Shown: positions 1,420 through 19,085 of the stretch, piece by piece
Layout of the letters: each line of letters opens with the position of its first letter
How positions within the stretch are numbered: the stretch's first letter is position 1
From: a virus
Virus record (IMG/VR): IMGVR_UViG_3300030090_001208
Coordinates: 1 to 31,101 of that record
Reading direction: 5' to 3' (one strand)
DNA length: 31,101 nt
Notes under the pieces: generated by a model
What the model saw: only the letters and a program-made list of their open reading frames with translations
Told to the model about the DNA's origin: nothing
The model's database searches: none
Program-made: the position numbers and the translations under genes

Positions 1420-2916
1420 ATGGCAAGCTTCGGTTTACAGCTATTAGGCATGGGAATGTCAGGCATCGGAATGATGCAGGCAAACAAACGTGCCAAAGAA
1501 GCAAGACAACTTCAAGAATACATGTTCCGAGAACAGATGGGATTACAAAGAGCCAACCTTGGGTTGGCTCAAGATGCATTCCGTCAAAGCATGGAAGAGA
1601 ACCAATACTTACGACAGATAGAACAACTTAACAGACTTATGGCTCAAGAGGAACGACAGTTCCAATTAGACGAGCTAGAGAAAAACAAACAAATACTTCT
1701 TGAAGAAAGACGAGAAGCGATAGAAAGACAGATAAAAGAAGACAAAGAAGCAGCCAAGCTTGCCGCTTTTAGAATGGAAAGACTTCTTAAAAATGAAGAG
1801 CTATCAGTACAAGAAAGAGAATTTGCAATACAACAGCTAAAAGAAGCACAGCGTATAGCACAGGGAGAAGCAGACGAAGACAAGAGAAGATTTTTAGAAG
1901 CGCAGGAACTAAGAAAAATAGAACGTGACTTCCAGATGCAGGAATACCAAGAAGCTAAAGCTTTGGCTGAAGGTGAAAAAGCAGAGCAAATGGCTTTCCG
2001 TGACAGAATAATGAACAACATAGATGGTCTAAGAACTGCTCTAAGCGAAACTGCGACTAAGCTTGGGGACATTCCAGAAATAGAAAGACTTACTCAAGGA
2101 GACATAAACGCAGAGACAGCTAGACGAACAAAGGAATATCAAAGCGACATAGACAGAGCAGCCGAAGCAGTTGCGTCTGTCAACGAAGCAAATTTAATTA
2201 GAGGTGGCATAGACGCAAGTTCTACAGCAACTGATGCTCGTGGCGAAATAGCAAGAAGAATTGCAGACGAATATCAAAGCGCAAGAATGAGAGCAGGAGA
2301 TGATGCACTATCATACATAACTGGTCAGAACCAAGCACTCAACGCAAACCTAGATGCTATACTTGGCAGACGTGGTGCAATACTAGACGAGACTGCAAAA
2401 ATAGGTGGCGTAGGTATTGACCAAATGATGCAGATGCAAAATCTTCCATCAAGTCTGGGCATTTATAATATGGCAAGCTCTCTACCTACTGGCGTCTACG
2501 ATAGAAACACATTATCAGCAGGAAACTATCGTTCACCTGTAAATATGTCTTCTGCTATTTACTCAGGTCTATCACCTATTGCAAGCATGGCACAATACAG
2601 AAACATACCATCTTTATCGACAAACCAAGGGTTTAATGTTAAATCTGGAATATTTGCTCCAACACCAATAAGCACACCAAACGCAAGCACTTATATGGGC
2701 AATGCAAATAATATTGGTAGTAATTTATTAACCAGTGCAACAAGTGGTTATACAAACGCTATGACAAACTTAGCAAATGCAAGCTCTGGTTTTGGAACAG
2801 ACTTGGCTGAAGTAGGAGCAGATGCTTCGTCAACACAGTATGGTAAAGAGTTTGATGAGTTTCTTTTTGGTAAACTTGGTCAAGCAAAAGATTATTTAAG
2901 TAATATATTTAGGTAG
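1420..2916 (+). CDS. Putative internal virion (ejection) protein with N-terminal hydrophobic segment and long coiled coil
   Basis: This is a 498-aa protein. Residues 2-20 are Gly/Met-rich and hydrophobic, possibly a membrane-inserting helix. Residues about 22-200 are a continuous Gln/Glu/Arg-rich coiled coil, 200-330 are helical, and the last 150 are Ser/Asn/Thr-rich. A hydrophobic glycine-rich N terminus followed by a coiled coil recalls T7 gp14-type internal virion proteins. The comparison rests on architecture, and on the gene being followed by a 794-aa and then a giant gene, the same order as T7 gp14-gp15-gp16. I see no enzymatic motif. The start codon lies 3 nt after the previous stop, so translation is probably coupled. 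Role is inferred, not recognised by sequence identity. Confidence 0.6.
   Translation: MASFGLQLLGMGMSGIGMMQANKRAKEARQLQEYMFREQMGLQRANLGLAQDAFRQSMEENQYLRQIEQLNRLMAQEERQFQLDELEKNKQILLEERREAIERQIKEDKEAAKLAAFRMERLLKNEELSVQEREFAIQQLKEAQRIAQGEADEDKRRFLEAQELRKIERDFQMQEYQEAKALAEGEKAEQMAFRDRIMNNIDGLRTALSETATKLGDIPEIERLTQGDINAETARRTKEYQSDIDRAAEAVASVNEANLIRGGIDASSTATDARGEIARRIADEYQSARMRAGDDALSYITGQNQALNANLDAILGRRGAILDETAKIGGVGIDQMMQMQNLPSSLGIYNMASSLPTGVYDRNTLSAGNYRSPVNMSSAIYSGLSPIASMAQYRNIPSLSTNQGFNVKSGIFAPTPISTPNASTYMGNANNIGSNLLTSATSGYTNAMTNLANASSGFGTDLAEVGADASSTQYGKEFDEFLFGKLGQAKDYLSNIFR
1550..1570 (+). repeat. Intragenic 9-bp hairpin with 3-nt loop
   Basis: GAGCCAACC (1550-1558) and GGTTGGCTC (1562-1570) are perfect reverse complements around a TTG loop, inside the coiled-coil part of the 498-aa gene. 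It is GC-rich compared with its AT-rich surroundings. A stem of this length can arise by chance in 31 kb, so no function is claimed. Confidence 0.4.
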
Positions 2917-2921
2917 AAAGT

Positions 2922-5306
2922 ATGGTAGATTTTAGCGCAATAGCAAGTGGTTTTCGTCAACAAAGAAAAGACGACAGAGCAACAAGAAAAGACATAGCAG
3001 ATACTTTTGCACAGTTTAGGAAAGATAATCCTTATGCTACGTTAGACGAGCTAACAGATAGAATAAGTTCTTTAACTGGTGGAAGAAACTATCTCAGAGC
3101 AGGCTTGCCAGAAGTTAGTGTTTTAAATCAAATCGCAGACACTAACCTACAAAACAAGCAAAATAAAGAATACATGGATAACTTAAATAGAAGAAGCGAG
3201 ACTAATGAATTAGTAGACAGCTACAAAACCAAAGCCATGGAATTTTTAAAATCATCAATAGAATCGTCAGGAACTTTATTAAGTCCTGAAACTATTAATG
3301 AACAATTACAAAGATTAAAAAATGATTTTGCAAAATCAAACAACATAAACATTGGCATGGATAATGACCCATTTGGTTTATATGCTTCACTAGATACTAT
3401 ATTTACTCCAGAGAATGCACAAAAGTTTCAATTAAATTTTCAAAATCAAGCAAGAGACCAAGTTCTTCCTATGCTTAAAAACGCTATACAAAAAGATGGC
3501 GTTATATCAAAAGACGAAATAGCTAATATACTTAGACTTACAAAAATAGACAAGACAACATTGGTAAACGAATTTATTCCTGCTGTAGAGCAGGAATACC
3601 AAGAAGAACAAGGCACAAAGTTTTTAAACATGACTTCAAGTATGCATGCTGAAATAGATAATTTTCTTGCAGGAGAAGAAATGGATTGGAGAGATGGTAA
3701 GTCAGGAGATTTAGAAGCTTTGACACTATCCCATATGAAAGAGTATTTAAAAAATCTAGCAGTACCAATTCCATCAGAAGCAATGCTTAAAAGAGTAATT
3801 AAAAGAAGAGTAAATAATATAATAACAAATTGGGAAGATAAAAAAGTAGCATTTCAACAGGAAGGAGAAGAAAAACTTCTAAATTATCAAAAAGAAATTG
3901 CAGCAAAAATTGAAGAACAATTAAATAATCCAAAAAGCAATCTTTATAAAGCTTATGAAGCAGGCGACACTGAAGAAGTAGAAAATCTTATAGCACAAGA
4001 AATTAAAACACTGACATTAAGTGGAAACAAAAACGTACCATCACCATTAGAAAGATATTTTGGTAAAGAAAATATGAAAAATGTTTTAGCAAATATTCAA
4101 TCTAGCGTTAAATCAACAATGAACGTAACAGTTAAGGCAATTCAAGAAGACCAAAGAGATAACCTTAAAACAATAAACGAAAAAGCAATAGAAGCAAGTA
4201 AAAAAGCAGTTGCAAAACTTATAGAAGATACGAACAATAGCATTCTTATGACTTTTGGTAAGCCTGATAAACCAACACCAAACTCAAAGCTAGGCAATTT
4301 TGGTGTAACTGGCAATGTACCTACTGCCGTAATTAATTTAGCTAAAAAATATTATTTAGACCAAACATCGCAAGATATGATTATTAACGCATTGGAAGGA
4401 TACCCTGATAATGAAGGCACAACCTCAACTGACATTTATCAGTATATAGAGAAAAATTTATCTGGCTTGCTTAGACCAATAGATGGAGTGACAAGCGCAT
4501 TAGCACAAACAACTACAAGTAATCTTGGTGCTTTTGGTGATATAAAAACATTTACTGAATTTATTAACAAATACAACAAAGACTTTGAACCAATTCTATC
4601 TCAAATCCAAGACAACATAATTAACTTAGACTTGTCAGACCCACAAGGTGCAGACAAACTTAACCAATATAAGTTACAAATAAAAAGTGTCTTAGCAAGA
4701 GCAGAACAAGTAATGGAAAATGCAGAAAGAACTGAAGACACTTGGATATTAAATGCTCAACCTGACCAATGGAGAAGAGAAGACGCTAACAAAGCTTTTA
4801 AATCAATACAAGAAACATTAAACAAACTTGATGCAGAAGCGTCAGAAAAAATGGATAAATTAACGCCTCCAACAGTAGGAGGCACTGGTACTAATGATGA
4901 CGAAGTACAATCATTAATAGAAAAAACCAAAGACCAAAATTTACAATATTCTCAAGATGATGCTAAAGCCGATATGAAAAAGTTGTTTGACCAAAGAGCA
5001 ACGGACTTTTTTAATACTTTGATAAACGAAGGTCTAACGTCTCTTACTGGAAAATCAAAAAGTATTTACAGTTCAAGCATAGTAAATCATTTCCGTGGTG
5101 GTGGACCAGCATCAGCACTTGGAAATAAAAGAAGCGATATTAGTGTATCCACATTAGAAGACATAAATAACTTTTTAAGTGATGTAAGGAACGTAAGACT
5201 TATTGTTCAAGATAAGAGAAAAATGCAAGAATTTATAGATAACCCTAAAGAATTTTTAGAACAAGATATAGGAAGTTTAAAAGATATTTTAACGCAAAAT
5301 TTTTAA
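2922..5306 (+). CDS. Putative internal virion protein, all-helical, 794 aa
   Basis: This is a 794-aa, Lys/Asn/Glu-rich, almost entirely helical protein without signal peptide, membrane segment or catalytic motif that I can see. The N terminus (FRQQRKDDRATRKD, then a segment ending in SSLTGGRNYLRAGLPE at about residues 49-64) resembles, from memory, N termini of large proteins next to the ejection genes of marine podoviruses. I cannot verify this. Length is close to T7 gp15 (747 aa), and it sits between the gp14-like gene and the giant gene, so a gp15-like ejection-tube role is inferred. The start ATG follows the previous stop by 5 nt and is preceded by an AGG-type ribosome site. Its base composition is the most AT-rich of the virion block. 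Confidence 0.55.
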   Translation: MVDFSAIASGFRQQRKDDRATRKDIADTFAQFRKDNPYATLDELTDRISSLTGGRNYLRAGLPEVSVLNQIADTNLQNKQNKEYMDNLNRRSETNELVDSYKTKAMEFLKSSIESSGTLLSPETINEQLQRLKNDFAKSNNINIGMDNDPFGLYASLDTIFTPENAQKFQLNFQNQARDQVLPMLKNAIQKDGVISKDEIANILRLTKIDKTTLVNEFIPAVEQEYQEEQGTKFLNMTSSMHAEIDNFLAGEEMDWRDGKSGDLEALTLSHMKEYLKNLAVPIPSEAMLKRVIKRRVNNIITNWEDKKVAFQQEGEEKLLNYQKEIAAKIEEQLNNPKSNLYKAYEAGDTEEVENLIAQEIKTLTLSGNKNVPSPLERYFGKENMKNVLANIQSSVKSTMNVTVKAIQEDQRDNLKTINEKAIEASKKAVAKLIEDTNNSILMTFGKPDKPTPNSKLGNFGVTGNVPTAVINLAKKYYLDQTSQDMIINALEGYPDNEGTTSTDIYQYIEKNLSGLLRPIDGVTSALAQTTTSNLGAFGDIKTFTEFINKYNKDFEPILSQIQDNIINLDLSDPQGADKLNQYKLQIKSVLARAEQVMENAERTEDTWILNAQPDQWRREDANKAFKSIQETLNKLDAEASEKMDKLTPPTVGGTGTNDDEVQSLIEKTKDQNLQYSQDDAKADMKKLFDQRATDFFNTLINEGLTSLTGKSKSIYSSSIVNHFRGGGPASALGNKRSDISVSTLEDINNFLSDVRNVRLIVQDKRKMQEFIDNPKEFLEQDIGSLKDILTQNF

Positions 5307-5335: not shown

Positions 5336-8300
5336 ATGGAAAAAAGTTACTTTGATGGCATTGACCTTAGTGCCGATTTAAAAGCACCTACTTTAGAGCA
5401 AGCAGATTATTCTCAATCTATTGACCCTAAAAAAATATTAGAAAATCCATCGTTTCTTAGAGATTTAAGAGACTATTACGAAGAACAAGAAGGAAGAGCA
5501 ATACATTGGTCAGACGACCAACTGATTGATGCCTTTTATGCTGACTCAACTTGGAGAGAATTTAATACAGTTTCTGCCATAGGTGGTGCATTTGAACCTT
5601 GGGGAATGGGAAAAGAGTCCAGAGAACGTGCAAAAAGAATTGAGTCCGTCTGGAAACAACTACCTATGTTCTGGCAGGAAGGTGGGAGAGGAGCCGCTAC
5701 TGCTCTCCCAGACATTCTAGGAGCAATGGCTTCAGACCCTCTTAACTTTGTACCAGTAGGAGCCGCATATAATGTAGCCAAAGCAGGGGTCATTGGAGGA
5801 AAGACATTACTTGGTGCAACTGCAAAAGGTGTTGGTTCTGCGGCTTTGGCAGAAGGTGGTATTTCTGGCGCACAAGAAGGTATAGTTAATCTATCAGGTC
5901 AGGTAAGAGACAAAGGACTTGGTCTGCGAGAGAATGTAAGTCTAGGTGAATTAGGAACAGCGACAGCCGCAGGAGCAGTCTTGGGTGGTGTAGCAGGTAG
6001 TGCTTTAGGTCTTCCTGCAGCTATATTTGGTGCAAGAAAAGGAAAACAAGTTGTAGATGGTTTACTTGCAAAAGGTCTTACAAGGGAAGAGATAGCACGT
6101 CTTGACCAAGAACAGCTTGTAAGTATTGCTGAAGCAGAAGGTTTAATAGCTCCTCCAGACGCAGCAGACGTACAGAGAGCAGCCAACGCTGCAGACGAAA
6201 AAGAAGTAGAAAAACCTACAATAGAAACTTTAATAGAAGAACAGCGTGAAATAGTAAGACGTCTCAAATCAGAAGGTGCAGATGCTGAAGAGATGGAAGA
6301 CGTATTAGTTCTTCTTGAACAGATAAGTGTATTCAAAGAGAAAACACAGCCGAATTTAGAAAGACAAATAGATGTATTAGAAAGAAAAGGTGATGAAGCA
6401 TCTTTAAACAAAGCAAGGAAAAAAAGAAAAGCATTAAATGATACTCTTTTGCGTATTTCTAATATTGAATCACAAGACTTATCTGAATTTGACGGAGACG
6501 CAAAAGCAGCTCTAAAGGCTATCATAGACAATCCATATGGCAAACCAGTTGTAGGAATTAAACCTGAAGAACCTAAACCTAAAGCGAAGGCAGCTGATGC
6601 AAATGTAGTAGATACAGACGTAGACGCACCAGATGCAGAAGCAGAAGTAGAAACTCCTGAAGATATAGACGCAGAAGTAGAAGCAATAAATAAAGCTGAT
6701 GAAGAAAGACTGAAATTTTTTAATGGTAGCTTTGAAGACGCTTTACGACTTGAAGAAGCAGGTATAGACCCTGCTTCAATAACAGGAACAGGACCTAAAG
6801 GTAAGGTAACAAAAAAACAAGTAGACGAAATAATTGCAAGTAGACAAAAAACTGAGCAAACTGACCCTGATATTCAAAAAGAGTTCGATGAAGATTTTGA
6901 TAGTTTTTTAACCATTAGTGGAAAATTTGAAACAGATGCTGAACTTGCCAAAGCAAGAGCAGAGTATGCTAGAGCATTTGAAAAGCTTCATAAATTAGAC
7001 GAAGGCACAATTCAACAACGTGACGAATTGGCAAAAGCCCTAGCACCTGAGAAAGACTGGATTGCAGACAATCAATTAACTCCAGATGAAATAAAACAAT
7101 TCAAAAAAATAAAAAGAAGAATACAGGCAGACATTTCTAAATCTCCAGAAGATTCAAATTTAAGGTTAGATGGAGTTTTAGATGCAAAAGCAAGAACTCA
7201 ATTTTTAAATTTTAGAGCTAACAAACAAGGCAAAGCTAGAACTACTGGCGAATCAATAGATAGAGCAGGGCAATTAACTACAGCAGGCAGAGAACCTGAG
7301 TCTGGTAAGATACAAGGCATACTTAAAAAAGGAGAGTTTACTGGCGAAGGAGGTGGTTCACCTGGCAGTTTAAAATTTGGTGGTAGAAAGTTTGCTAAGT
7401 ATGCAGAGAGAGAAGAAGCATTTAGAATTTCTAAAAAAGCAAGAAAAGACAGCATAAATAGACTTGTACGTTTCGTAGTTGGCGATAAAGGAATGACTGT
7501 TATTGATGCTGACAATAACCAAGTAAGAGTTGGTAAAGGCACAACAGTTATAGCAGACGGACATACAAGAAAAGTTTACAAAGACGATGAAACTGCTTTT
7601 AAAAGAACAGGATTAAAAGCTCCAAAAAATGATGAGCAAGAAAGAATGATTACTAAATCCACTAGAAAAGGATTTACTAATGAAGAAAAAATAGCTCAAG
7701 CAGCAAGAGTAGGAGACTTTGATAAGATAGCCGAAATCATGGCTATTATGAGAGCAGAAAGAGAAGGTAAAATACCACAAGACCAAGGTAAAACAACACC
7801 AAATAATGTAGACATACCTACTACCTCTGGCAGTAAAAGAGTTATTGTACAAAGTAAAACAAATCCTAATGACGTTAGGATTATTTCTAAGAAGCAACTT
7901 GCAGACGGCAAAGGTATTGAAGCAATCATTGGTCAAAAGGGTGGAGCTGCCTCAGACCCAAATAACTGGACTATTAAATATGCTCCTGCTGATACAAATG
8001 TTTATGGAAGAAAGTTAAAAGAGCTTTTTGACAGCCTACCAGACGAAGAAGGTAAACCAAAAGCAGGAGAAAAATTTGAGTCTGATACTGCAAAAGGAAC
8101 AGGCGAACCTATAGATTTAGAAGACGCATTAGAGTTAGAGTTAGAAATACTGCCAGAAGATTTAGAAGCAATAGACAATTATAATTTTCTTCAAAAGACT
8201 TTGTTTCCTAAAGGAGGTAAATTTGCAGACAAAGGCGAAACATTTTTTGTTGATGCAAATTCAAAAGGTACAAAAGTTGTTATAAAGTACGGAAGTTTAA

Positions 8301-11300
8301 AAGAAGCTATATTAAATGTAGGTATGCATGCAAGGTGGGCTTCAACAAGACAAGGTCATCAGTTAGTTATAGATACTCTAAAAAAATTACATGAAATAGA
8401 AAAAAGAGTTGTACCTCCAGAGGGTATAGTAGACACAAAAACATCAAGAAAAAAATCAATAGCAGACATAGAGAATGTATTTAAAGGATACAGTGCAGAA
8501 GAGATAGCTGCAGCTAAACGTCTAATTGAAAATCTAGGTGGCAATTTAGGATTAGGACCTAACATAACTTCATTACAAGGCAGAGGTCAGTTTTATAAAT
8601 TTAGAGCAGATACAAAAGACGTGTATGGTGGTTTTGTAGGAGACAGCAAAACAAAAAAACAGCCTTACTTTACAAGACCAAGTATAAACAGACCATTTAT
8701 TAATATACCTAATGAAGTTACAAGTCCAAAAGATATAAATATAAATAGTCCAATAAATGTAAAACTTTTACATGAGGTTGCTCATTGGGGTTATGACAAT
8801 ATTTTAACTACCGAAGACAAAATAAACTTCTTAACTATGATGTCTAAATACTACGAAGACGGCATGTTAAATGTAGAAAAAATAGACGAAGGTTCATACT
8901 CAAGCCCAAATAAACCAATGGAATCAGGTAAAGCACAAGCATTTATTGGTAACGCACTCGAAAGTCCTCAAGAATTTTTTGCAAATCAATTCTCTGTTTG
9001 GGCAGGAAGACAAGACGAGAAGCTTGTTATAAAAGACGAGGGCTTTTGGAAAAAAATGTTAGGCTATATCAAAGGAACATTTGATAGATATTTCTACGAT
9101 ACTCCTATTGACCCTGATTTAGAGCCTTTATTTTTAAAACTACTTCCAAACAAAGAAGAAATTGGAAAAAGAAGTATGGGCGTTACAGAGCCTAAGACTA
9201 AAGCAGGAAAAGCAATTAAAGAAAAACATACTCAATTCAAACTTATTAGAGATAAATTGCAAAGAATTGTAGATGAATATGACGAAGACGAAAGCAATCC
9301 TGATGCAATAATCAGAGGGTTTATTGAAGATGGTTGGTTCTTGGCTAACGTAGTTTACAACAAGAAAAGAAGTGGCGAGTTTAAAATGATGAGTAAGTAT
9401 TCTAAATTACTTATCAGAGAAAGACTAAAAGACATTAACACTATTATTAATCAAGCAAGTGGAGCAGGAGAAGGAATAAACTGGGTACAGTTGGCTTCAG
9501 AAATAGGTAATGGTGGAGAAGCAGGAAACATGGGTCTAAGTATTGTTAATCCTGCCAATAAAGAAAGAGCGGCAAAAAATCTAATTGAGTTATATAAAAA
9601 GGGATACACTGGAGAGTTTAAAGGTGGAGAAAGATTCGAAGTTATAGGAGATGACGGAGAAGTTATTGGTTATAACTATGGAAACATAAAAGAACTAGAC
9701 CGAACAGCTATGGAACGTATGTTTGATTATGCGTTAGAAAGTCTTGAAGCTCACTTCCAAAAAGTAGAAGACACAAATCTTGATATGGCAGGAAGCATAA
9801 TTGAAAAAGAACCTGCGATAGTCTCTAAAAAGAAAGCAGACGGAGGTGGTGAATCAAGAACATTAAAGAGAATAAAAAATAAATCCAATGCTGATTTTAC
9901 AGAAACTGTTGGTAACGCAAAGACAACTTTCAAATCAAAAAAGAATGTTAAAAATAAAAAGAACAGCAGTAAAGTAAATCCTGAGACTGCTCCAGAACTA
10001 GCATCTAAAAGTCTTTCTGCACTTGCAAAGTTATTTAAAAAACATCTTGGCACAGATTACGGCAGACAAATAGCAGAACAAATGATTAGAAAATCAAAAA
10101 CAAGGTCAATGCCTAAAGTGCAAAAGAACTACAAAGTTAGAAGAGAATTTGTAGATATGTATTTGCCAGACCTTAAACAACGTATGAATGAGGCTATAGA
10201 AGCAGGCGACAACGAAATTGCAAAAGAAATACAATTTGAAATAACAAGACGGAATGCAAAGAAAAAAGCAAAAGCCGAAGGTAAAAACACATCAGAATAC
10301 GTAGGTTATATTGGCAAGAGCGATAAGATAAACAGAATGATAGACGTTGAAAGAAACGATTTAACAGGCGTTCAAGTAGAAGACGGCATACCTGCCAACG
10401 CAAGACCAATGGTGAAAGAAATTCTTTCTTACGTTACTCATCGTGACCCAGAAAGAATGATAGCCGCTAGAACACTGATATACAGAGCGTTAAACTTAAT
10501 GGGTAAAGTATCAAGGTTAGACGATGGTCTTAATCCTATACTATCTAAGAATATATCTAGGTTAATTAATACAGACTATACAAGAAAAGGTTCAGAAGAT
10601 TTTGTCGATTACAAAGGAGGAGACTTTGCTGTACTCAGAAATTTATTTAGAACACTTGGTGTAGAATTAGATAGAAGTCCAGGCGATGAAACAGTAAGAC
10701 TTATGTCTTCTATAGCTATGAGAGCTACAATGTCTCCAGAAGATTTAGATGTAGTTCGTTTTGGCTTTAATAAAATGAACCCAGAAACTCAGTCTAAAAT
10801 TAGAAGCGACTTTGAAAGAGGCACTGGTGTAGTTCTTAAACAAGAAGGTGCGCCAGACGAAGTTATGGAAGAGTACATGTTAATTGATTGGCTGTCTGGT
10901 AAAGCACAACAATATCATGCAGGAGAACTAAGCCCATCAAAAATAGTTGATGAGTTAGACGCAGGAATAGATTCAAGACTTAATCCTAAGTATGGAGTGG
11001 CTGATTTATACAGAGTGATTACATCAACAATGAGCGACAATAGAGAACAAGTAGCTTACATGATGAATGGTCTTGTCAAAGATGACGTATTTAAAGATAA
11101 ATATTTTGGAATAACAACTCTTTACGGAGACATGTTTGTATCAAATAGAAGAGGAGGCATAGAATTTCCAATAGATGATGGAGTTGCCGTACATTCTTCT
11201 TATGCTTCAGACGTTGCTCAGTCTGCATGGCAACAATCTTCTAAGTCCAGAAGAGAAAAGATTATTAAATTTGTAGAGGGTGGTGTTGGACAAAATGATA

Positions 11301-14300
11301 TATCTGGCGACCCTATAGTATTTTATCATGGAACTCCTAATGGCAAAGCATTAGATGGAAGTCAGACATCTACTGTTATGACAAGAAGTAGTCCAGAGTC
11401 TTGGTATGGAAGAGGTATTTATCTTACAAGAAACCCAGTTGTTGCAGAACAATCTTATGCAACATCTCAAACATTCTCTGCTTTTAATAAACAGATAAGT
11501 GAACTTGATGTTTCTCAAGATGTTAAAGACGAGTTAGAAGACGTAGCTTTTGATTTAGCAAAAGTAAGAACTAGAATGTCTGTTCTTAAAAGAGAAAATG
11601 CAAAACTAACAGAGTCCGATGATATGTCAGACTTTATAAACACAATGTTAATACAAGACAACATTAGAAGTTTAATAGAAACAGAGAAAAGATTAGTAGG
11701 AAGTTTAGAAGAAGCAGGAATAGTTATTGAACCTTATGTAATGCCTGCGTATGTACAGTTAAGAAAACCTATAGACTTTAGAGAGTCAAGAAGATACGAC
11801 TTAAAAGAACCTATATTCCCTGCATTATACGAAGGAATATTTAACTTTGCACGTTCAAGAGGTTACGATGTTTCAGACATATCAGATGCTGTTAATATCA
11901 TGGAACGTGAGTTGGCAGAGTCAGAGTCAGTAACAGGAATGGAAGTCTATAATATTTTAGGTCTTGTTATGGAAAACTTTGTAAGAAACAGTTGGGGTGA
12001 AAGTACAGTAGGTCATACAAAAGATGCAATCACTGAGTTGTTAAGAGAAATGGGACACGATGGTATTGTAGCTAGTTATAGAAATACTGTAGAAGATGCG
12101 ACTGACGCAATGAGTGGAAGCTCTGTATACCACGAAGGTGTTATATTGTTTGACCCAAAACAAGTAAAACATGTAGCCGCAGAAAACTTTGATGATACAT
12201 CTGAGCAACTATTTAATATGGAAATGGGTGGTGGCATACCAGAAGGTACGAATGGCTCTATTATAATGGCAATGATAGATGAAACTACATCTAAAATAGA
12301 GGACATACCTACAGGTAAGTTTGGAGAACTGCTAGAAGTAGACGGAAAGTCCAGAACATTTACAGGTGTTGCGTCTTCTATGATTAAGAAAAGACCACTC
12401 AATGAAACAGAAGTAGAAGTGATTAGAAGTTCGTCTGCTCCTACATGGTTTCAATCGCAGTCAGACAGGATAAATAAGATAGGTGCTAGATGGCTTGGTC
12501 ATTGGTATAAAAATCATTTTACAGAAATCAGTAGTAAATTTGCAGGTAAGTTTATGCCTATTGCAGACCTAATGTCAAAGTTACCTGATACAGGTAACTT
12601 TGTTAGTCGTTGGTTTAGAAAGTCTACTGCAAGTAAATTACAAAAACAGCCAGAAAGTCATACAAGAATTGTAAAAGCTTTAAGAAGAAGCAATGACAGC
12701 AGACAATATAAAGCATTATCGTCACAGGAAAGAGAGATTGTTGATAAGATTAGGCAGACGCTAGACGCAGAAAGAGCCGCTCTAAAGGGTAACGGATTTC
12801 ATGTTGGATACAGAAGAAATTATTTACCACAAGTTTGGAATCAAAATGTAATTAGAAAAAATAAAGACGAGTTTATCCAACTTATGAGAGAATATTATGT
12901 AAGAGAACAAGCATCTCTAGGTAAGGAACTAAAAGGCTCAGACGATTTAGATTTTGCAAATCAAATATACTTAACGCTTGCTGAAGAAGCCGCAGAAGAT
13001 GGGGTAATGATACCTCATAAAACTGTTAAGGGTCTTACAATGAATGCAGGCTTTGAAAACATAGATATGTCAAGAGTTCTAAACATTGGCGATTATCCAG
13101 AGTCACTCAATGCATTAGAAAAGTTTTTAGAGAATGACCTTGATGCAATACTTGTTAAGTATCTTGAAGGTAGCACTAGACGTCTGGTTATGTCAGATGT
13201 TATGGGAGTTAATAGCCATGCATTACAGGATTACATACTGGCTTCTAATGAAGGTGCAGATGGTATAGCCAGACTTCTATCTACAGCAAAAGTATTTAAG
13301 AAGCATACAAAAGGCTTAACATCAGACGGATACATTGAAGAAGGTGTGCTTACAGATACAATAAGAATGCCTTTTGAAGGAAATGAATTTAGAGCTAAAG
13401 AATTTGCTCAAGAACTTATACAAGCTCATCAAATAAATGGAGCGTCTGCAGCCAAAAAGATGCTGTACGACTTAATGCCTAAGATGAGTTCTACATATAA
13501 GAGAAGAGCAGACGCTATCCTTGGTGCTTTAGATGATTTTGCTGGCAAGAAAAACAATATCACATACGAAAACGAAGAATTTATAGACAATGCTATGAGA
13601 GTAGCAATGAAAAAGCCTATGAAAAATAACAGTAAACCTTTGATGCAAGCATCTAAGTTTATACGAACTGTAAACAATGTTACACTACTTGGCTTTACTA
13701 CACTCACATCATTAGGTGATATTGTCTTGCCAGTTATAAGGTCTGGTTCTTTTACGAGTTGGGTAAAAGGTCTTTTTAAATTTACTTTAGACCCAGAATA
13801 TAGACGCATGTTAAATAATGTAGGTGTTGCAATGGAAAACATTGTGCATGAAAGAATGGTTCATATGTATGGTGCGCCAGACAATAAGCTTTCACACGCT
13901 TTCTTCAATGCTACATTACTTACACCTTGGACAGACTTGCAAAGAAAGATTGCAGGAGCTACAGGGTACGAGACGTTTAGAGCTATGCAGTCTCAAGCAG
14001 AAAAACATTTTAAAAGAGGAGTTCCTTACTCTCAACAAACAGGTAAGTACAAAACTGCTCATAGATTTTTAACAAGATATGGATTGAATGAGTATTTACC
14101 AGGTCAATCCAATGATGGTAGAGCGTTCTCAAGTGATTTTGCTAGGACAGATAATAAAGTTAGAGAAGCAATAATAAAATTTGCAGACGAAAGTATCTTC
14201 CAACCTAATCCAAATGACGTACCATTATGGGCGCAGACGCCTGTAGGACAACTTGTATTTCAGTTAAAGTCTTTCCCACTTATGATGTCAAGACTTGGTG

Positions 14301-14914
14301 GCTATGTACTTCAAGAAGCAAATCAAGGAAACTTCAAACCATTAATAGCCTTCGCAACTTTAGGACCTGCAATGGGTGGTGTTACTTTATCTGTAAAAGA
14401 TATTGTCCAATCTCGTGGTGGAGAAGAGCAACGTGACCCAGAAGTTAGAAAAAGAAACATTGCAAAAATACTTGGCTATGACTCAAAGACACATGGTGAT
14501 GACTATAATGACTTCTTAGGTTGGTATATAGAAGGCATGATGATAATGGGTGGCTTTGGATTATTGGGAGACGTAATGCATTCAGTTACTTCTCAGGTAG
14601 ACAATGGTGCATATGGTCAACAAAGAATATGGTCTACACTTCTCGGACCTTCTTATGGTCTAGGTAACGCAGCCATAACAGGTGCTTCTGGAATACAAGA
14701 TGCTCTTGTTGGTGGAGATAACAGCAATGCTAAAGAGAGGTCTGCAATGAGAGAACTGGCTACAAGACTACCGATACTTGGTGGAATGAGAAATGTCAGA
14801 GAAGGAATTGTAGACACAATAGCAGGAGAGCAGGGTGCAGGAAGTGCTAACAATGGTTGGGGTTCTGGCAAATGGTCTAGTAACTCAAGTAAAAACAATG
14901 GTTGGGGAGCATGA
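5336..14914 (+). CDS. Giant polyvalent virion protein with zincin-like and ADP-ribosyltransferase-like domains (3192 aa)
   Basis: The start ATG has GGAG 8 nt upstream. Visible regions: 113-235, a Gly/Ala-rich hydrophobic, possibly membrane-active segment; 235-460, charged coiled coil; 466-501, like the E3-binding domain of 2-oxoacid dehydrogenase E2 (AGID, then GTGPKGKVTKKQV); 1146-1150 HEVAH, with SPQEFFA (E1213) as likely third zinc ligand, a gluzincin-like protease site; about 1994-2280, ADP-ribosyltransferase-like, with YHGT (H1998), GRGIYL (Y2029), HDGIVA and VYHEGVILFDP (E2267), giving an H-Y-E triad; about 2490, YRRNYLPQVW, as in phage large polyvalent proteins; 3002-3022 and 3063-3081, hydrophobic segments; then a Gly/Asn/Trp-rich tail. 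Polyvalent proteins are known to be co-injected with phage DNA to act on host targets. Position after gp14/gp15-like genes suggests a gp16-like ejected protein, but I found no transglycosylase motif. Domain calls are by motif only; delivery is inferred. Confidence 0.8.
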   Translation: MEKSYFDGIDLSADLKAPTLEQADYSQSIDPKKILENPSFLRDLRDYYEEQEGRAIHWSDDQLIDAFYADSTWREFNTVSAIGGAFEPWGMGKESRERAKRIESVWKQLPMFWQEGGRGAATALPDILGAMASDPLNFVPVGAAYNVAKAGVIGGKTLLGATAKGVGSAALAEGGISGAQEGIVNLSGQVRDKGLGLRENVSLGELGTATAAGAVLGGVAGSALGLPAAIFGARKGKQVVDGLLAKGLTREEIARLDQEQLVSIAEAEGLIAPPDAADVQRAANAADEKEVEKPTIETLIEEQREIVRRLKSEGADAEEMEDVLVLLEQISVFKEKTQPNLERQIDVLERKGDEASLNKARKKRKALNDTLLRISNIESQDLSEFDGDAKAALKAIIDNPYGKPVVGIKPEEPKPKAKAADANVVDTDVDAPDAEAEVETPEDIDAEVEAINKADEERLKFFNGSFEDALRLEEAGIDPASITGTGPKGKVTKKQVDEIIASRQKTEQTDPDIQKEFDEDFDSFLTISGKFETDAELAKARAEYARAFEKLHKLDEGTIQQRDELAKALAPEKDWIADNQLTPDEIKQFKKIKRRIQADISKSPEDSNLRLDGVLDAKARTQFLNFRANKQGKARTTGESIDRAGQLTTAGREPESGKIQGILKKGEFTGEGGGSPGSLKFGGRKFAKYAEREEAFRISKKARKDSINRLVRFVVGDKGMTVIDADNNQVRVGKGTTVIADGHTRKVYKDDETAFKRTGLKAPKNDEQERMITKSTRKGFTNEEKIAQAARVGDFDKIAEIMAIMRAEREGKIPQDQGKTTPNNVDIPTTSGSKRVIVQSKTNPNDVRIISKKQLADGKGIEAIIGQKGGAASDPNNWTIKYAPADTNVYGRKLKELFDSLPDEEGKPKAGEKFESDTAKGTGEPIDLEDALELELEILPEDLEAIDNYNFLQKTLFPKGGKFADKGETFFVDANSKGTKVVIKYGSLKEAILNVGMHARWASTRQGHQLVIDTLKKLHEIEKRVVPPEGIVDTKTSRKKSIADIENVFKGYSAEEIAAAKRLIENLGGNLGLGPNITSLQGRGQFYKFRADTKDVYGGFVGDSKTKKQPYFTRPSINRPFINIPNEVTSPKDININSPINVKLLHEVAHWGYDNILTTEDKINFLTMMSKYYEDGMLNVEKIDEGSYSSPNKPMESGKAQAFIGNALESPQEFFANQFSVWAGRQDEKLVIKDEGFWKKMLGYIKGTFDRYFYDTPIDPDLEPLFLKLLPNKEEIGKRSMGVTEPKTKAGKAIKEKHTQFKLIRDKLQRIVDEYDEDESNPDAIIRGFIEDGWFLANVVYNKKRSGEFKMMSKYSKLLIRERLKDINTIINQASGAGEGINWVQLASEIGNGGEAGNMGLSIVNPANKERAAKNLIELYKKGYTGEFKGGERFEVIGDDGEVIGYNYGNIKELDRTAMERMFDYALESLEAHFQKVEDTNLDMAGSIIEKEPAIVSKKKADGGGESRTLKRIKNKSNADFTETVGNAKTTFKSKKNVKNKKNSSKVNPETAPELASKSLSALAKLFKKHLGTDYGRQIAEQMIRKSKTRSMPKVQKNYKVRREFVDMYLPDLKQRMNEAIEAGDNEIAKEIQFEITRRNAKKKAKAEGKNTSEYVGYIGKSDKINRMIDVERNDLTGVQVEDGIPANARPMVKEILSYVTHRDPERMIAARTLIYRALNLMGKVSRLDDGLNPILSKNISRLINTDYTRKGSEDFVDYKGGDFAVLRNLFRTLGVELDRSPGDETVRLMSSIAMRATMSPEDLDVVRFGFNKMNPETQSKIRSDFERGTGVVLKQEGAPDEVMEEYMLIDWLSGKAQQYHAGELSPSKIVDELDAGIDSRLNPKYGVADLYRVITSTMSDNREQVAYMMNGLVKDDVFKDKYFGITTLYGDMFVSNRRGGIEFPIDDGVAVHSSYASDVAQSAWQQSSKSRREKIIKFVEGGVGQNDISGDPIVFYHGTPNGKALDGSQTSTVMTRSSPESWYGRGIYLTRNPVVAEQSYATSQTFSAFNKQISELDVSQDVKDELEDVAFDLAKVRTRMSVLKRENAKLTESDDMSDFINTMLIQDNIRSLIETEKRLVGSLEEAGIVIEPYVMPAYVQLRKPIDFRESRRYDLKEPIFPALYEGIFNFARSRGYDVSDISDAVNIMERELAESESVTGMEVYNILGLVMENFVRNSWGESTVGHTKDAITELLREMGHDGIVASYRNTVEDATDAMSGSSVYHEGVILFDPKQVKHVAAENFDDTSEQLFNMEMGGGIPEGTNGSIIMAMIDETTSKIEDIPTGKFGELLEVDGKSRTFTGVASSMIKKRPLNETEVEVIRSSSAPTWFQSQSDRINKIGARWLGHWYKNHFTEISSKFAGKFMPIADLMSKLPDTGNFVSRWFRKSTASKLQKQPESHTRIVKALRRSNDSRQYKALSSQEREIVDKIRQTLDAERAALKGNGFHVGYRRNYLPQVWNQNVIRKNKDEFIQLMREYYVREQASLGKELKGSDDLDFANQIYLTLAEEAAEDGVMIPHKTVKGLTMNAGFENIDMSRVLNIGDYPESLNALEKFLENDLDAILVKYLEGSTRRLVMSDVMGVNSHALQDYILASNEGADGIARLLSTAKVFKKHTKGLTSDGYIEEGVLTDTIRMPFEGNEFRAKEFAQELIQAHQINGASAAKKMLYDLMPKMSSTYKRRADAILGALDDFAGKKNNITYENEEFIDNAMRVAMKKPMKNNSKPLMQASKFIRTVNNVTLLGFTTLTSLGDIVLPVIRSGSFTSWVKGLFKFTLDPEYRRMLNNVGVAMENIVHERMVHMYGAPDNKLSHAFFNATLLTPWTDLQRKIAGATGYETFRAMQSQAEKHFKRGVPYSQQTGKYKTAHRFLTRYGLNEYLPGQSNDGRAFSSDFARTDNKVREAIIKFADESIFQPNPNDVPLWAQTPVGQLVFQLKSFPLMMSRLGGYVLQEANQGNFKPLIAFATLGPAMGGVTLSVKDIVQSRGGEEQRDPEVRKRNIAKILGYDSKTHGDDYNDFLGWYIEGMMIMGGFGLLGDVMHSVTSQVDNGAYGQQRIWSTLLGPSYGLGNAAITGASGIQDALVGGDNSNAKERSAMRELATRLPILGGMRNVREGIVDTIAGEQGAGSANNGWGSGKWSSNSSKNNGWGA

Positions 14915-15240
14915 GTAAGAAGCTACAAAAAGGCAGTCAATACGAACAGTTTGATTTAGATGGTGATGGTGTGGTTACAGACAAAGAACTAGCACAGTCT
15001 GAGCATATGATACGTCTTGAGAACTCTGACAAGATGCAAGACCAACAGCGTATGCTTTGTTGGGTATCTTCTGTCTCGTCTATCATATTAATAGTATTGG
15101 TCATGTCTCCTGTTATACCAGACACAAGAGTTGAGATGGTTACTGCTTTACTTTCTACGTATGTTATAGCAAACTTAGGTATAGTTGCTACGTTTATGGG
15201 TACAACAGCTTTTACAAGGTCGAAAGAAAATGGTAAATGA
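14911..15240 (+). CDS. Small EF-hand protein with two membrane segments
   Basis: I chose the ATG at 14911 (109 aa), which overlaps the giant gene's stop as ATGA. A TTG nine bases earlier is in frame but less likely. Residues 15-26 (DLDGDGVVTDKE) are a canonical EF-hand calcium loop, with acidic residues at loop positions 1, 3, 5 and 12 and Gly at 6. Hydrophobic helices follow at about 48-69 and 76-98, joined by a short loop containing PDTR. I recall similar EF-hand plus two-helix proteins in marine phages, annotated as hypothetical or holin-like. With a better holin candidate downstream, this could be an accessory membrane or virion protein. Calcium binding is predicted from the loop only. 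It opens a chain of small overlapping genes. Confidence 0.7.
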   Translation: MSKKLQKGSQYEQFDLDGDGVVTDKELAQSEHMIRLENSDKMQDQQRMLCWVSSVSSIILIVLVMSPVIPDTRVEMVTALLSTYVIANLGIVATFMGTTAFTRSKENGK

Positions 15241-15437
15241 CATGGCTTTTAGTAGTATTTTTATCAGGAACTGTACAGGAGTCAGTCTATTTCAGTAATT
15301 TGGATACGTGCCTTAGAATTGCAGAAAAGATTAGAGCGCAAAACCTTGACCCATCGCTCGCAGGAGACAGCAGGATTTGGGTCAAAGCTTATTGCGTACC
15401 TAAATCCGTTCCACCAAAAGAAGGAGAAAAGAAATGA
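15237..15437 (+). CDS. Small exported or membrane-anchored phage protein
   Basis: This 66-aa ORF starts in an ATGA overlap with the EF-hand gene. Its N terminus is hydrophobic (MTWLLVVFLSG), like a short signal peptide or anchor. The remainder holds two Cys (residues 25 and 53), which could form a disulfide outside the cytoplasm. The C terminus is Lys/Glu/Pro-rich. No family is recognised. Place in the chain before the lysis genes would fit an envelope-directed role, such as a spanin-like or lysis-accessory protein, but there is no direct support for that. Confidence 0.55.
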   Translation: MTWLLVVFLSGTVQESVYFSNLDTCLRIAEKIRAQNLDPSLAGDSRIWVKAYCVPKSVPPKEGEKK

Positions 15438-15583
15438 CAAACAAAAGGGGTAGACCAAAGAAGACCACTGTATATACACCCAGAGTTGTAGGTGAAAAAA
15501 AGAAAACACTATGGGATATAGTAGAGTGGCTCAAAGGAACTGCTAAGAGAAAGAGTTTTTTCGATTGGCTATTGAGAAAGTAA
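15434..15583 (+). CDS. 49-aa basic protein with AT-hook-like motif
   Basis: The ATG at 15434 overlaps the preceding stop (ATGA) and the frame runs 49 codons to TAA at 15581. The N terminus has KRGRPKK, which matches the GRP core of an AT-hook minor-groove-binding motif. The C-terminal half is basic and aromatic (WDIVEWLKG, FFDWLLRK). Overlap with the preceding gene and the motif support a real gene. DNA binding is suggested only by the short motif. Confidence 0.5.
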   Translation: MTNKRGRPKKTTVYTPRVVGEKKKTLWDIVEWLKGTAKRKSFFDWLLRK

Positions 15584-15735
15584 TAGATATTAAACTAAGA
15601 ATAGATAGGTTCAGACGTGAAAACAAAGAAATTTTTTCTAAAAGAACGGACAAAGAAAAGTCTATTCTGGTGTATGATAAAGACCAACCATACTTAAAGA
15701 AGGAAGACAATGGCGAGAACAAAAAAGAAAAGTAA
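15565..15735 (+). CDS. Possible 56-aa charged protein (TTG start)
   Basis: An open frame runs from TTG at 15565 to TAA at 15733, overlapping the ends of both neighbours in the chain. The product is rich in Lys, Glu, Asp and Arg (IDIKLRIDRFRRENKEIF), helical, without membrane segment. There is no ATG and only a weak ribosome site, so the case rests on filling an otherwise empty 126-nt gap in a tightly packed gene chain. It may be a chance frame. Confidence 0.3.
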   Translation: MAIEKVIDIKLRIDRFRRENKEIFSKRTDKEKSILVYDKDQPYLKKEDNGENKKEK

Positions 15736-15877
15736 GAAAGACGCATGTTATCACAAGGTCAAAAGAAGTTATTCCGTCTGGCCCTCAGCGTATGCGTCTG
15801 GTGCTTTAGTAAAATGTAGAAAGGTTGGCGCAGCCAACTGGGGTAACAGTAAGAAGAAGAAAAAGAAAAGAGCATAA
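15710..15877 (+). CDS. Lys/Cys-rich 55-aa phage microprotein (YASGALVKC type)
   Basis: The ATG at 15710 opens 55 codons ending at TAA 15875-15877, sharing the last base with the next ATG (TAATG). The core CYHKVKRSYSVWPSAYASG, followed by ALVKCRKVGAANWG, is a pattern I recall from small proteins of marine phages, lying between Lys-rich ends; its two Cys are about 23 residues apart. Function is unknown. It is one of three consecutive basic Cys-containing proteins, so they may form a group of virion or DNA-associated accessory proteins. The frame is well supported by its coupling with the next gene. Confidence 0.55.
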   Translation: MARTKKKSKKDACYHKVKRSYSVWPSAYASGALVKCRKVGAANWGNSKKKKKKRA

Positions 15878-16095
15878 TGGCAGGTGAAAGTTTACATAAA
15901 TGGTTTAAAAGAAACAAAGGTAAGGGTTGGATAGACTGTAAAACTGGTAAGCCTTGTGGAAGGAAATCAGCAAAAAGTTCAAAAAGACCATACCCTGCTT
16001 GCAGACCAACCAAAGCACAATGTACGTCTGCGGCTAAAAAGAAGACGAGTTCAAAAAGAATTAGTTGGAAAAAGAAAAAGAAGAGGGCAGCGTAA
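15877..16095 (+). CDS. Lys/Cys-rich 72-aa phage microprotein (WIDCKTGKPCGRK type)
   Basis: Starts in a TAATG overlap with the previous gene. The motif WIDCKTGKPCGRK followed by RPYPACRPTKAQC gives four Cys in two pairs (C-x5-C and C-x6-C), a possible small metal-binding or disulfide fold, with a poly-Lys/Arg C terminus. Sequences of this pattern are familiar to me from marine tailed phages, where the function is unknown. The very basic tail could bind nucleic acid. The gene ends in another TAATG overlap, consistent with coupled translation along the chain. Confidence 0.6.
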   Translation: MAGESLHKWFKRNKGKGWIDCKTGKPCGRKSAKSSKRPYPACRPTKAQCTSAAKKKTSSKRISWKKKKKRAA

Positions 16096-16352
16096 TGGGT
16101 AAGAAAGCACCAAAACTTAACAAGAAAAAGATGCCATGTAACAAGCCGAGGAGACAAGTCTCTGGTGGCAAGAAGTTTGTAGTTAAAGCATGTGCTAATG
16201 GTGTAGAAAAGATTATACGTTTTGGCGATGCGAATATGAAGATTAAAAAGAATCAACCTGGCAGACGTAAGAACTTTAGAGCAAGGCATAGATGTGATAG
16301 CAAGCCACCATCTAAGCTAACTGCCAGATATTGGTCTTGCAAGAAGTGGTAG
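16095..16352 (+). CDS. Conserved-looking basic phage protein ending in ARYWSCKKW
   Basis: I chose the ATG at 16095 (85 aa), which overlaps the previous stop as TAATG; the frame extends further upstream, but only through the previous gene. The C-terminal half, with IIRFGDANM, then RRKNFRARHRCDS and TARYWSCKKW, is a pattern I recall from cyanophage and other marine phage genomes, where it is a conserved protein of unknown function. Cys residues at the N-terminal third and in the C-terminal RHRCD and WSCKKW segments may form a metal site. The fold and role are unknown. A structural or capsid-associated role is possible because it lies in the late region. Confidence 0.65.
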   Translation: MGKKAPKLNKKKMPCNKPRRQVSGGKKFVVKACANGVEKIIRFGDANMKIKKNQPGRRKNFRARHRCDSKPPSKLTARYWSCKKW

Positions 16353-16355
16353 GTC

Positions 16356-16499
16356 ATGCATAGTATAGGTAAAAAAGTACGTGTTATTGGAAACAAAACA
16401 AAAACTGGCAAGATGCAACACCCTAATTGCCCTTGTGTTATAAACAGAGCCGCTAACTATACAGTCAAACCGAACAAGAAAAAAACTAAACAGACATGA
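16356..16499 (+). CDS. 47-aa basic protein with CPC motif
   Basis: The ATG at 16356 lies 3 nt after the previous stop; 47 codons run to TGA 16497-16499, which overlaps the next ATG (ATGA). The product has a lysine-rich N terminus, a HPNCPC motif in the middle, and a KPNKKKTK tail. It continues the series of basic Cys-containing microproteins. No family is recognised; coupling to both neighbours is the main evidence that it is translated. Confidence 0.45.
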   Translation: MHSIGKKVRVIGNKTKTGKMQHPNCPCVINRAANYTVKPNKKKTKQT

Positions 16500-16693
16500 T
16501 AGAACAAACAATCAGTGATGTAGAAACTCTAACCAAGACAATAAACATTGGTGAGGGTGGTAGTGATGTCGAAGCAGGCATTCAATTCATCTACCATATG
16601 AGAGAACATCTAGTAGATATAGGCATAGCAACTGTATATGGATTGGCAGTATATGCAATGTTCCTATGGATTACAAAAAAAATTAAGGGGTAA
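16496..16693 (+). CDS. 65-aa single-TM protein upstream of the holin
   Basis: Starts in an ATGA overlap. The N-terminal 35 residues are acidic and polar; residues about 40-60 form one hydrophobic helix (IGIATVYGLAVYAMFLWIT), followed by a short basic KKIKG tail, so the C terminus is probably cytoplasmic. It ends 3 nt before the holin start. A small one-TM protein at this position could be a second holin, an antiholin or a structural membrane protein; the sequence does not decide. Confidence 0.55.
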   Translation: MIEQTISDVETLTKTINIGEGGSDVEAGIQFIYHMREHLVDIGIATVYGLAVYAMFLWITKKIKG

Positions 16694-16696
16694 AAA

Positions 16697-17101
16697 ATGT
16701 TACAAACTATTTTCGGACCTATAGCCTCCCTTGCAGGGACTTGGTTAGAAGGTAAAGTAAGTAAGTCAAAAGCAGAATCAGAAGTCAAAGTAGCTAGAGC
16801 CAAAGCCGAAGCGAAAGTTTACGAGACAGAAGCTACGTCTGCCATGCTTAATGAGAGGTCTTTGACAGACCAGATGGGCGAAAGTTGGAAAGACGAAGCG
16901 TGGTCACTTTGGTTTATAGCAGTATTAACCTGCTGTTTTCTGCCTTGGACACAAGAATATGTTAAAGAAGGCTTTATATTTTTAGACCAACACACACCAA
17001 ATTGGTTTCATAACATGTTGTATATAGTGATAGGCAGCAGTTTTGGATATAGGTTCGGTAAGCAAGGACTACAAATTATGAATAAAAGGAGTTCAAAATG
17101 A
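16697..17101 (+). CDS. Holin, GTA_holin_3TM-like
   Basis: 134 aa with a good ribosome site (AAGGGG) upstream. Residues 1-18 are hydrophobic/amphipathic, 20-45 are a Lys/Ala/Glu helix, then comes GESWKDEAW, followed by hydrophobic helices at about 69-84 and 103-118. This matches the layout of the 3-TM holin family named for gene transfer agent release (GTA_holin_3TM), in which an ESW-type motif precedes the second membrane helix. Holins form the membrane lesion that times lysis. Its stop overlaps the lysozyme start (ATGA), which supports the assignment. Family membership is by pattern, not by search. Confidence 0.75.
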   Translation: MLQTIFGPIASLAGTWLEGKVSKSKAESEVKVARAKAEAKVYETEATSAMLNERSLTDQMGESWKDEAWSLWFIAVLTCCFLPWTQEYVKEGFIFLDQHTPNWFHNMLYIVIGSSFGYRFGKQGLQIMNKRSSK

Positions 17102-17538
17102 ACATAAATTTATTACGTGAAGAATTAGCCAGAGACGAAGGCATAAAGTATGAAACATACCTAGACCATTTAGGTTTAAAAACATGTGGGGTGGGACACC
17201 TTTGCCGTGAAGACGAGCCAGAGTTTGATAATCCACTGGGTACATCAGTCTCTGAAGAAAGAGTGAATGAACTGTTTGAACAAGACATCAAGATAACCAT
17301 TGACGACTGTAAAAAAGTCTATGATGATTGGGACGACATGCCAGAGCAAGCGAAAAGAGTATGCGCAAATATGATGTTTAATCTCGGATTTCCTCGTTAC
17401 AGCAAATTCAAAAAGAAAATACAAGCTGTGAAAGACGAAGATTGGTTTGAAGCCAGCGTCCAGATGGAGCAGTCAAAATGGTTTCATCAAGTTCCGAACA
17501 GAGCGAAGCGTTTAATTGAGCGCATGAAGTCTATCTAA
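17098..17538 (+). CDS. Endolysin: T4-type lysozyme (glycoside hydrolase family 24)
   Basis: 146 aa. It cleaves the N-acetylmuramic acid to N-acetylglucosamine linkage of peptidoglycan. The catalytic set is clear near the N terminus: E14 in RDEG, D23 in YLDHLG and T29 in KTCGVGH. The E-x8-D-x5-T spacing equals T4 lysozyme E11-D20-T26. Later segments (MMFNLGF and ANRAK-like PNRAKRLIERM) also fit the family. There is no signal peptide, so it needs the holin for release. It is the last gene of the plus-strand late block, and its stop overlaps the end of the convergent methyltransferase gene by 8 bp. Confidence 0.92.
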   Translation: MNINLLREELARDEGIKYETYLDHLGLKTCGVGHLCREDEPEFDNPLGTSVSEERVNELFEQDIKITIDDCKKVYDDWDDMPEQAKRVCANMMFNLGFPRYSKFKKKIQAVKDEDWFEASVQMEQSKWFHQVPNRAKRLIERMKSI

Positions 17539-19083: not shown

Positions 19084-19085
19084 GT

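Follow-up and report, generated by a model that had tools for sequence, protein, structure and literature searches.

One of the closest described systems is gp16 (internal virion protein D) of phage T7, in which the membrane regions TMH I (residues 243-410) and TMH II (residues 1119-1290) lie on either side of gp16-C (residues 411-1118), which is thought to project into the host cytoplasm (PMC8954989). T7 gp16 has a transglycosylase domain, whereas P22-type gp16 proteins do without it (PMC8954989). Thus, the transglycosylase does not define gp16-type proteins. Polyvalent proteins combining an ADP-ribosyltransferase (ART) and a metallopeptidase (MPTase) are already known and include fusions to N4-type virion RNA polymerases (PMC5512222). 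The published polyvalent ARTs are of the H-Y-D type, and the polyvalent MPTases contain a helix with the HExxH motif, followed by a helix carrying the Glu that serves as third ligand (PMC5512222). Moreover, Roseobacter phage CRP-810 has founded a marine phage family that comprises 252 genomes, belongs mostly to temperate phages and includes a prophage in SAR11 (PMC11288001).

Here, we describe a giant gene on a 31.1-kb virus contig from IMG/VR (31,101 nucleotides; the window, by which we mean the whole stretch of DNA that was analysed). The gene product is probably an ejection protein of the gp16 (inner-membrane) type from a temperate phage of the CRP-810 family, with an effector block of about 2,100 aa placed between a TMH I-like segment and gp16-C. 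The gene and its two upstream neighbours are located as follows:

1420-2916, plus strand: upstream gene of 498 aa at the gp14 position, assigned by position; Gly-rich hydrophobic N terminus
2922-5306, plus strand: upstream gene of 794 aa at the gp15 position, assigned by position; co-exchanged with the giant gene
5336-14914, plus strand: giant gene for a predicted gp16-type ejection protein with a polyvalent effector block; 3192 aa, intact ORF

As stated in the original prediction, the giant gene is one reading frame of 9.6 kb, which starts with ATG and runs open to its stop codon without interruption. Judged by its gene content, the window is a member of the CRP-810-type marine phage family; the genes that fit this family encode a Prim-Pol/AAA primase, an integrase, an N6/N4 methylase and a lysozyme (Pfam). 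The window and CRP-810 have in common the general order of giant gene, lysis genes and replication genes, and in both phages the giant gene sits late, between genes of the capsid/tail region and the holin/lysozyme genes. The two large upstream genes directly precede it in a late same-strand run. They had been described as ordered like T7 gp14-gp15, which holds for their position. However, profile comparison with the T7 and pelagiphage gp14/gp15 proteins detected no homology for either gene, and Pfam gave no gp14/gp15 match. The idea that they are gp14/gp15 homologues was therefore dropped. Further along the window, about 1 kb without a convincing gene (15437-16496) lies between the downstream neighbours of the giant gene and the lysis genes; the related contig L002 carries a gene of 246 aa at this place, which the window does not have. 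The N6/N4 DNA methylase gene (17531-18619, minus strand) adjoins the lysozyme gene, and a gene for a CobT-type VWA domain, a cobalamin biosynthesis protein family, is located near the contig end (30093-31061).

A nucleotide search of phages with the window returned zero matches, and the scan of a genome collection found no relative. At the protein level, a tblastn search of annotated phages uncovered exactly one near-full-length relative, which is encoded by CRP-810 (36% identity over most of the length). In addition, 17 pelagiphage records match the giant protein within aa 3-201 (tblastn), the matched proteins being named "internal virion protein D" or being unnamed equivalents. Scanning viral contigs with an alignment of the C-terminus yielded 69 loci. 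Besides the window, they include 27 homologues of full length (3148-3381 aa), all of them encoded by one ORF, and wherever the gene is complete in this set it is almost always a single ORF. The exceptions are L021 and CRP-810, in each of which the gene is split over three frames. CRP-810 is the only cultured relative; as deposited, its giant gene (11571-21211) consists of three overlapping frames, gp34-gp36, and the second frame break falls at a 28-bp tandem repeat, which may reflect an error or a true mutation. The three-frame record thus documents either errors or a tolerance of splitting, and it counts against the reading that we prefer. For close pairs, every dN/dS value that could be estimated for the giant gene lies below 0.5, and all domains are well below 1. 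Thus, purifying selection acts on the whole length of the protein, including its middle.

The ends of the giant protein resemble the chassis of an ejection protein. The following features are relevant:

5378-6115, plus strand: N-terminal gp16-type module, aa 15-260 (tblastn and hhalign to pelagiphage internal virion protein D)
5663-6040, plus strand: Gly/Ala-rich hydrophobic segment, aa 110-235, like TMH I of T7 gp16 (family-mean hydropathy; column-shuffle test)
12650-14326, plus strand: gp16-C-like module, aa 2439-2997 (hhalign to the T7 gp16 family; tblastn)
14333-14710, plus strand: C-terminal hydrophobic segments, aa 3000-3125, at the place of TMH II of T7 gp16 (family-mean hydropathy peaks)

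The family alignment of aa 15-260 matches pelagiphage internal virion protein D with a probability of 99.7% (hhalign, E 5e-27). The hydropathy peaks that are conserved in the family lie at aa 129-140/210-228 and 3007-3116. Hence the membrane-active-like ends of the original prediction were recovered as Gly/Ala-rich hydrophobic segments near both termini. A column-shuffle test of the N-terminal segment against T7 TMH I gave a z of 5.6 (0/300 shuffles), with the TMH II control being mildly raised, and the sequence DPLNFVP of the giant protein corresponds to DPLSYVP in T7 TMH I; the hhalign comparison of the two segments was not significant. The likeness of aa 110-235 to TMH I is thus suggestive. 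For the C-terminal hydrophobic segments, the column-shuffle test detected no sequence match to T7 TMH II. The module between them, aa 2439-2997, aligns with six T7-type gp16 proteins onto T7 residues 600-1129 (hhalign 96.3%, E 2e-9), compared with 0.2% for the reversed-sequence control. For this comparison, the family alignment had been enlarged with the sequences of KPP25, phiR18, TL-2011b and phiA008, and the value without these sequences is 77% (E 2e-5). The C-terminal 845 aa match structural proteins of the Pseudomonas phages KPP25/phiR18 and genes of TL-2011b and phiA008 (tblastn), and relatives of the giant protein match PHROGs 684 and 6958, both annotated as "virion structural protein". 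Pfam searches of 15 family members gave no match to a transglycosylase domain or to an RNA polymerase family (N4-like virion RNAP or T7-type module). Taken together, the ends support the reading as an ejection protein, from which presence of the giant protein in the virion is predicted.

Between the ends, two regions resemble zinc peptidases:

8258-9250, plus strand: zincin-like metallopeptidase region 1, aa 975-1305 (AlphaFold2; Foldseek)
8771-8785, plus strand: HEVAH zinc-binding motif, aa 1146-1150 (E1147 in 38/47 and H1150 in 37/47 relatives)
8972-8974, plus strand: putative third zinc ligand E1213 in EFFANQF (37/47 relatives)
10388-11017, plus strand: second zincin-like region, aa 1685-1894, with a centre decayed in the window (HE[IV][AG]H ... 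EEWFAE in many relatives)

HEVAH is the sole HExxH motif of the giant protein, about 0.03 being expected from its composition, and most relatives retain the pattern HExxHW ... E-[FL]-FA. One clade has neither HExxH nor the third Glu (HAVAQW ... KIWADQF), and this joint loss suggests that both form one site. In the AlphaFold2 model of aa 975-1305 (pLDDT 73.9, pTM 0.74), HEVAH and E1213 lie in two successive helices, 166-181 and 237-252, respectively. A Foldseek comparison of this model with three viral "large polyvalent protein" models yielded E values of 2.9e-10 to 3.8e-5. A fold search of the PDB listed zincins, including anthrax lethal factor, at the top, all with E>1 and hence not significant. 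The Pfam profile MPTase-PolyVal (PF18818) did not match the window protein at E<=10, and the published MPTase-bearing protein of Roseovarius Plymouth podovirus 1 (RPP1) is likewise unmatched, which implies that the profile does not cover all MPTase clades. A zincin fold at aa 975-1305 is therefore likely. The zincin-type motif that had been proposed is borne out by its conservation, the matching Glu and the likeness to polyvalent models, but not by a fold match in the PDB.

It is very improbable that this region is a cell-wall or periplasmic hydrolase, which replaces the missing transglycosylase of gp16 and aids in tunnelling through the envelope instead of acting against host proteins. Such a role could be suspected because the N-terminus shows no transglycosylase domain in Pfam, whereas T7 gp16 has one (PMC8954989). 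However, P22-type gp16 makes do without this domain, so a replacement is unneeded (PMC8954989); moreover, the peptidase region resembles models of polyvalent proteins and not cell-wall enzymes, and the phage encodes a separate lysozyme elsewhere.

The second zinc centre had been overlooked in the original prediction. It corresponds to aa ~1785-1860 of the window protein and is decayed across the clade of the window, being intact in L037, L052, L055, L065 and other relatives. Among the 45 homologues that could be scored at both centres, 21 have centre 1 only, 15 have both and nine have centre 2 only; none has neither. This may hint at a shared function, which is not a statistical test: a tree of the C-terminus accounts for the distribution with a single loss for centre 1 and two changes for centre 2. 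With about three losses only, we do not claim statistically that one protease centre is always needed. The retention of at least one centre in 45/45 scorable relatives would also fit an ejection protein whose enzymes serve the virion itself, in which case the peptidase would process the giant protein or neighbouring proteins while the virion assembles or ejects, the ART would be a minor or decaying passenger, and no host takeover would take place. There are precedents for such a role: DdrB of phage P1 presumably cleaves itself through its MPTase prior to packaging, and the N4 virion RNA polymerase requires its MPTase region for encapsidation (PMC5512222). We nevertheless regard this explanation as unlikely, mainly due to the properties of the ART domain, which has the following features:

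11297-12190, plus strand: ART-PolyVal domain, aa 1988-2285, with a helical insert of about 80 aa (PF18760 in two halves)
11327-11329, plus strand: ART His H1998 (57/58 relatives)
11420-11422, plus strand: ART Tyr Y2029 (58/58 relatives)
12059-12061, plus strand: ART Asp D2242 in GHDG (62/63 relatives)

The PF18760 profile matches in two halves, with profile positions 1-61 at aa 1988-2054 and positions 53-138 of 140 at aa 2135-2285. The total of 39.7 bits is above the curated cut-off of 31.2. Both halves became visible once neighbouring matches were summed, as the first Pfam search had caught the front of the profile only. The insert of about 80 aa that splits the domain is helical in the predicted model. 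ART-PolyVal was matched in 10/15 relatives (Pfam), and the same two-half match was seen in two relatives; in CRP-810 the second half alone was found, below the cut-off. No match was obtained in 14 control genomes at E 0.001. ART-PolyVal belongs to the Tox-ART-HYD2 clade, for which the catalytic H-Y-D residues are expected in strands 1, 2 and 5. In the predicted model (pTM 0.49), H1998 and Y2029 are part of strands, and D2242 immediately precedes one; in a fold search of the PDB with this model, which covers the ART and the second zincin region, the matches were dominated by helical segments and thus uninformative. An H-Y-E layout had been assigned to this part of the protein. The ART itself was confirmed, but an H-Y-E triad can be ruled out, since E2267 is kept in 17/64 relatives and D2242 is near-invariant. 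CRP-810 has a Lys in place of E2267 and retains GYDG, and the prototype ART of RPP1 has GGYDG at the place of D2242. Thus, the ART domain is real as a sequence family and of the H-Y-D type, its enzymatic activity being predicted. Neither can it be regarded as decaying, because the H-Y-D residues are near-invariant and dN/dS of the ART region (0.03-0.14 in close pairs) is as low as that of the structural C-terminus (0.05-0.11). This speaks against a protein whose enzymes serve the virion alone. No role of ART domains in assembly is known. An ejection protein that carries effectors into the host remains the preferred reading.

Profile searches of the PDB, for which alignments of the N-terminus, the zincin region, the ART and the C-terminus were used, found nothing significant, and the single-sequence search of the PDB returned marginal matches only, to the E3-binding region. 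This region is a short stretch in an acidic linker:

6752-6817, plus strand: short E3-binding/PSBD-like helical module, aa 473-494, in an acidic Ala/Pro-rich linker (Pfam PF02817)

The PF02817 match covers 22/36 profile positions and exceeds the cut-off of 23.7 by 0.3 bits (24.0 bits). An NCBIfam search gave a weak E2-type match over the linker and the PSBD-like stretch. The stretch may serve as a small module that binds protein or DNA. The E3-binding-like module named among the effector-type domains is thus present above the cut-off, but it is marginal, was matched in 2/15 relatives and shows no evidence of being an effector.

Comparison with a closely related contig, L003, revealed that the giant gene is exchanged together with its upstream neighbour. 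The junctions are as follows:

2400-3045, no strand: left recombination junction versus L003, identity falling from ~93% to ~50% (best changepoint 3045)
14900-14914, no strand: right recombination junction versus L003 at the end of the giant gene, 79% before and 96% after (log-likelihood gain 103; changepoint 14900)

In the flanks, the identity between the window and L003 is ~89-97% at 1-2400 and reaches 91-100% beyond 14900. Within the gp15-position gene and the giant gene, it is mostly 62-86% where the sequences can be aligned at all, and the left junction lies around the start of the gp15-position gene. The pattern is reversed between L003 and L006, with nearly all of the cassette at 86-98% and the downstream flank mostly at 80-92%. 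L003 therefore has its backbone in common with the window and its cassette in common with L006. These opposite patterns show that the giant gene and its neighbour at the gp15 position are transferred jointly between the backbones of near-identical phages. Such a co-exchange would be expected if the two products work together, like gp15 and gp16 of T7 (PMC8954989). It speaks against a large intracellular polyvalent protein that is made late or by the prophage, stays unpackaged and acts in the producing cell, for instance in superinfection exclusion. The window has an integrase, and most CRP-810-type phages are temperate (PMC11288001), which would suit this explanation. However, both ends of the giant protein are homologous to internal virion proteins, and its gene occupies a late structural position between the tail-region genes and the holin/lysozyme genes. 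Hence, a purely intracellular role appears quite improbable.

An injected ejection protein accounts best for these observations. From the homology to ejection proteins, the giant protein is predicted to be transferred into the host with the DNA. According to this model, aa 15-260 with the TMH I-like segment and the gp16-C-like and hydrophobic part (aa 2439-3125) would form the DNA-delivery chassis. The effector block of about 2,100 aa would contribute two zinc metallopeptidases, the second of them decayed, and an ADP-ribosyltransferase of the H-Y-D type. The protein may be packed in the head, leave it with its gp14/gp15-like partners and thread the envelope; with a T7-like topology, the effector block would come to lie on the cytoplasmic side of the new host, beside gp16-C. 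There, the ART might modify host proteins early in infection, as T4 Alt does, with both activity and targets being presumed. The peptidase could release functional fragments from the giant protein or act on host proteins by cleavage. More tentatively, and with less confidence than in the chassis itself, we propose that the gp16 chassis carries an exchangeable effector cassette, with the zinc protease and the ART inserted where the first membrane segment borders on gp16-C, that the docking ejectosome presents the effectors to the cytoplasm ahead of all phage gene expression, and that the gp15/gp16 pair is swapped jointly among near-identical phages to change delivery or the specificity of the effectors. 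The ART-PolyVal domain and the zincin-like region with HExxH and Glu are two distinct conflict-type domains in one polypeptide, and the gene lies beside late virion genes, which are both features used to recognise polyvalent proteins (Iyer et al. 2017). The fusion of ejection and effector functions put forward originally is thus supported by the homology of both ends, the PHROG matches and ART-PolyVal, but not by an H-Y-E triad, a zincin match in the PDB or the E3-binding-like stretch as an effector.

Polyvalent phage proteins are presumed to enter the host by injection, mostly by an unexplained route; here, a carrier can be named, which is predicted to be a gp16-type ejection protein. As the position of T7 gp16 in the infected cell has been modelled, the final location of the effector is directly testable. 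If the model is true, a widespread family of marine phages, which includes prophages of SAR11 and Roseobacter relatives, would use one molecule both to build the DNA channel and to act on the host. Moreover, near-identical genomes between which the two genes were cleanly exchanged provide a natural experiment on the traits that the cassette determines.

Among the known systems, T7 gp16 is similar to the giant protein in being the product of the last and largest gene of the ejection set, in the homology of gp16-C and in having hydrophobic segments in the same places. The differences are the size, 609-1337 aa for T7 gp16 and its homologues in a published survey (PMC8954989) versus 3192 aa, the missing transglycosylase and the effector block of about 2,100 aa that separates gp16-C from the first membrane segment. 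The internal virion proteins D of the pelagiphages HTVC019P, Eistla, HTVC121P and HTVC142P have a homologous N-terminal part of about 200 aa. However, they are ~1265-1283 aa long, their C-termini are not detectably related to the giant protein, and no effector domain was found by Pfam in the protein of HTVC019P. Gp52 of HTVC033P (1393 aa; L081, 8848-13029) is also homologous at the N-terminus, and this gp16-position pelagiphage protein contains LPD38 (E 1.3e-23), an unexplained domain of polyvalent proteins that is thereby connected with ejection proteins. It differs in that no ART was found in gp52, and LPD38 was not detected in the window protein (Pfam). A protein of 2050 aa from Aeromonas phage phiA008 (L010, 3985-10137), which has a related C-terminal module, starts with a staphylococcal-nuclease-like (SNase) domain. 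Together, LPD38 in gp52 and SNase in phiA008 suggest that other gp16-like proteins may also collect such domains. A literature search, covering mostly papers outside subscription journals, found no gp16-type protein with ART or zincin domains.

Gp34-gp36 of CRP-810 belong to the same protein family and the same phage family; they differ in being recorded as three frames, of which the N-terminal piece alone is annotated, as "internal virion protein D", and the accessible part of PMC11288001 contains no description of their effector domains. Alt of phage T4 is comparable as a packaged ADP-ribosyltransferase that is injected with the DNA (PMC5512222), but it belongs to the R-S-E clade and is a small separate protein outside the ejection conduit. 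The N4-like virion RNA polymerase of RPP1 is also a giant virion-type protein that joins ART and HExxH domains (PMC5512222). In this case, however, the chassis is an RNA polymerase and not gp16, and the window protein has no match to an RNA polymerase domain. Four features thus appear to be new in the case described here: a gp16 protein as chassis, its size, the pairing of zinc centres and the exchange of two genes as one unit.
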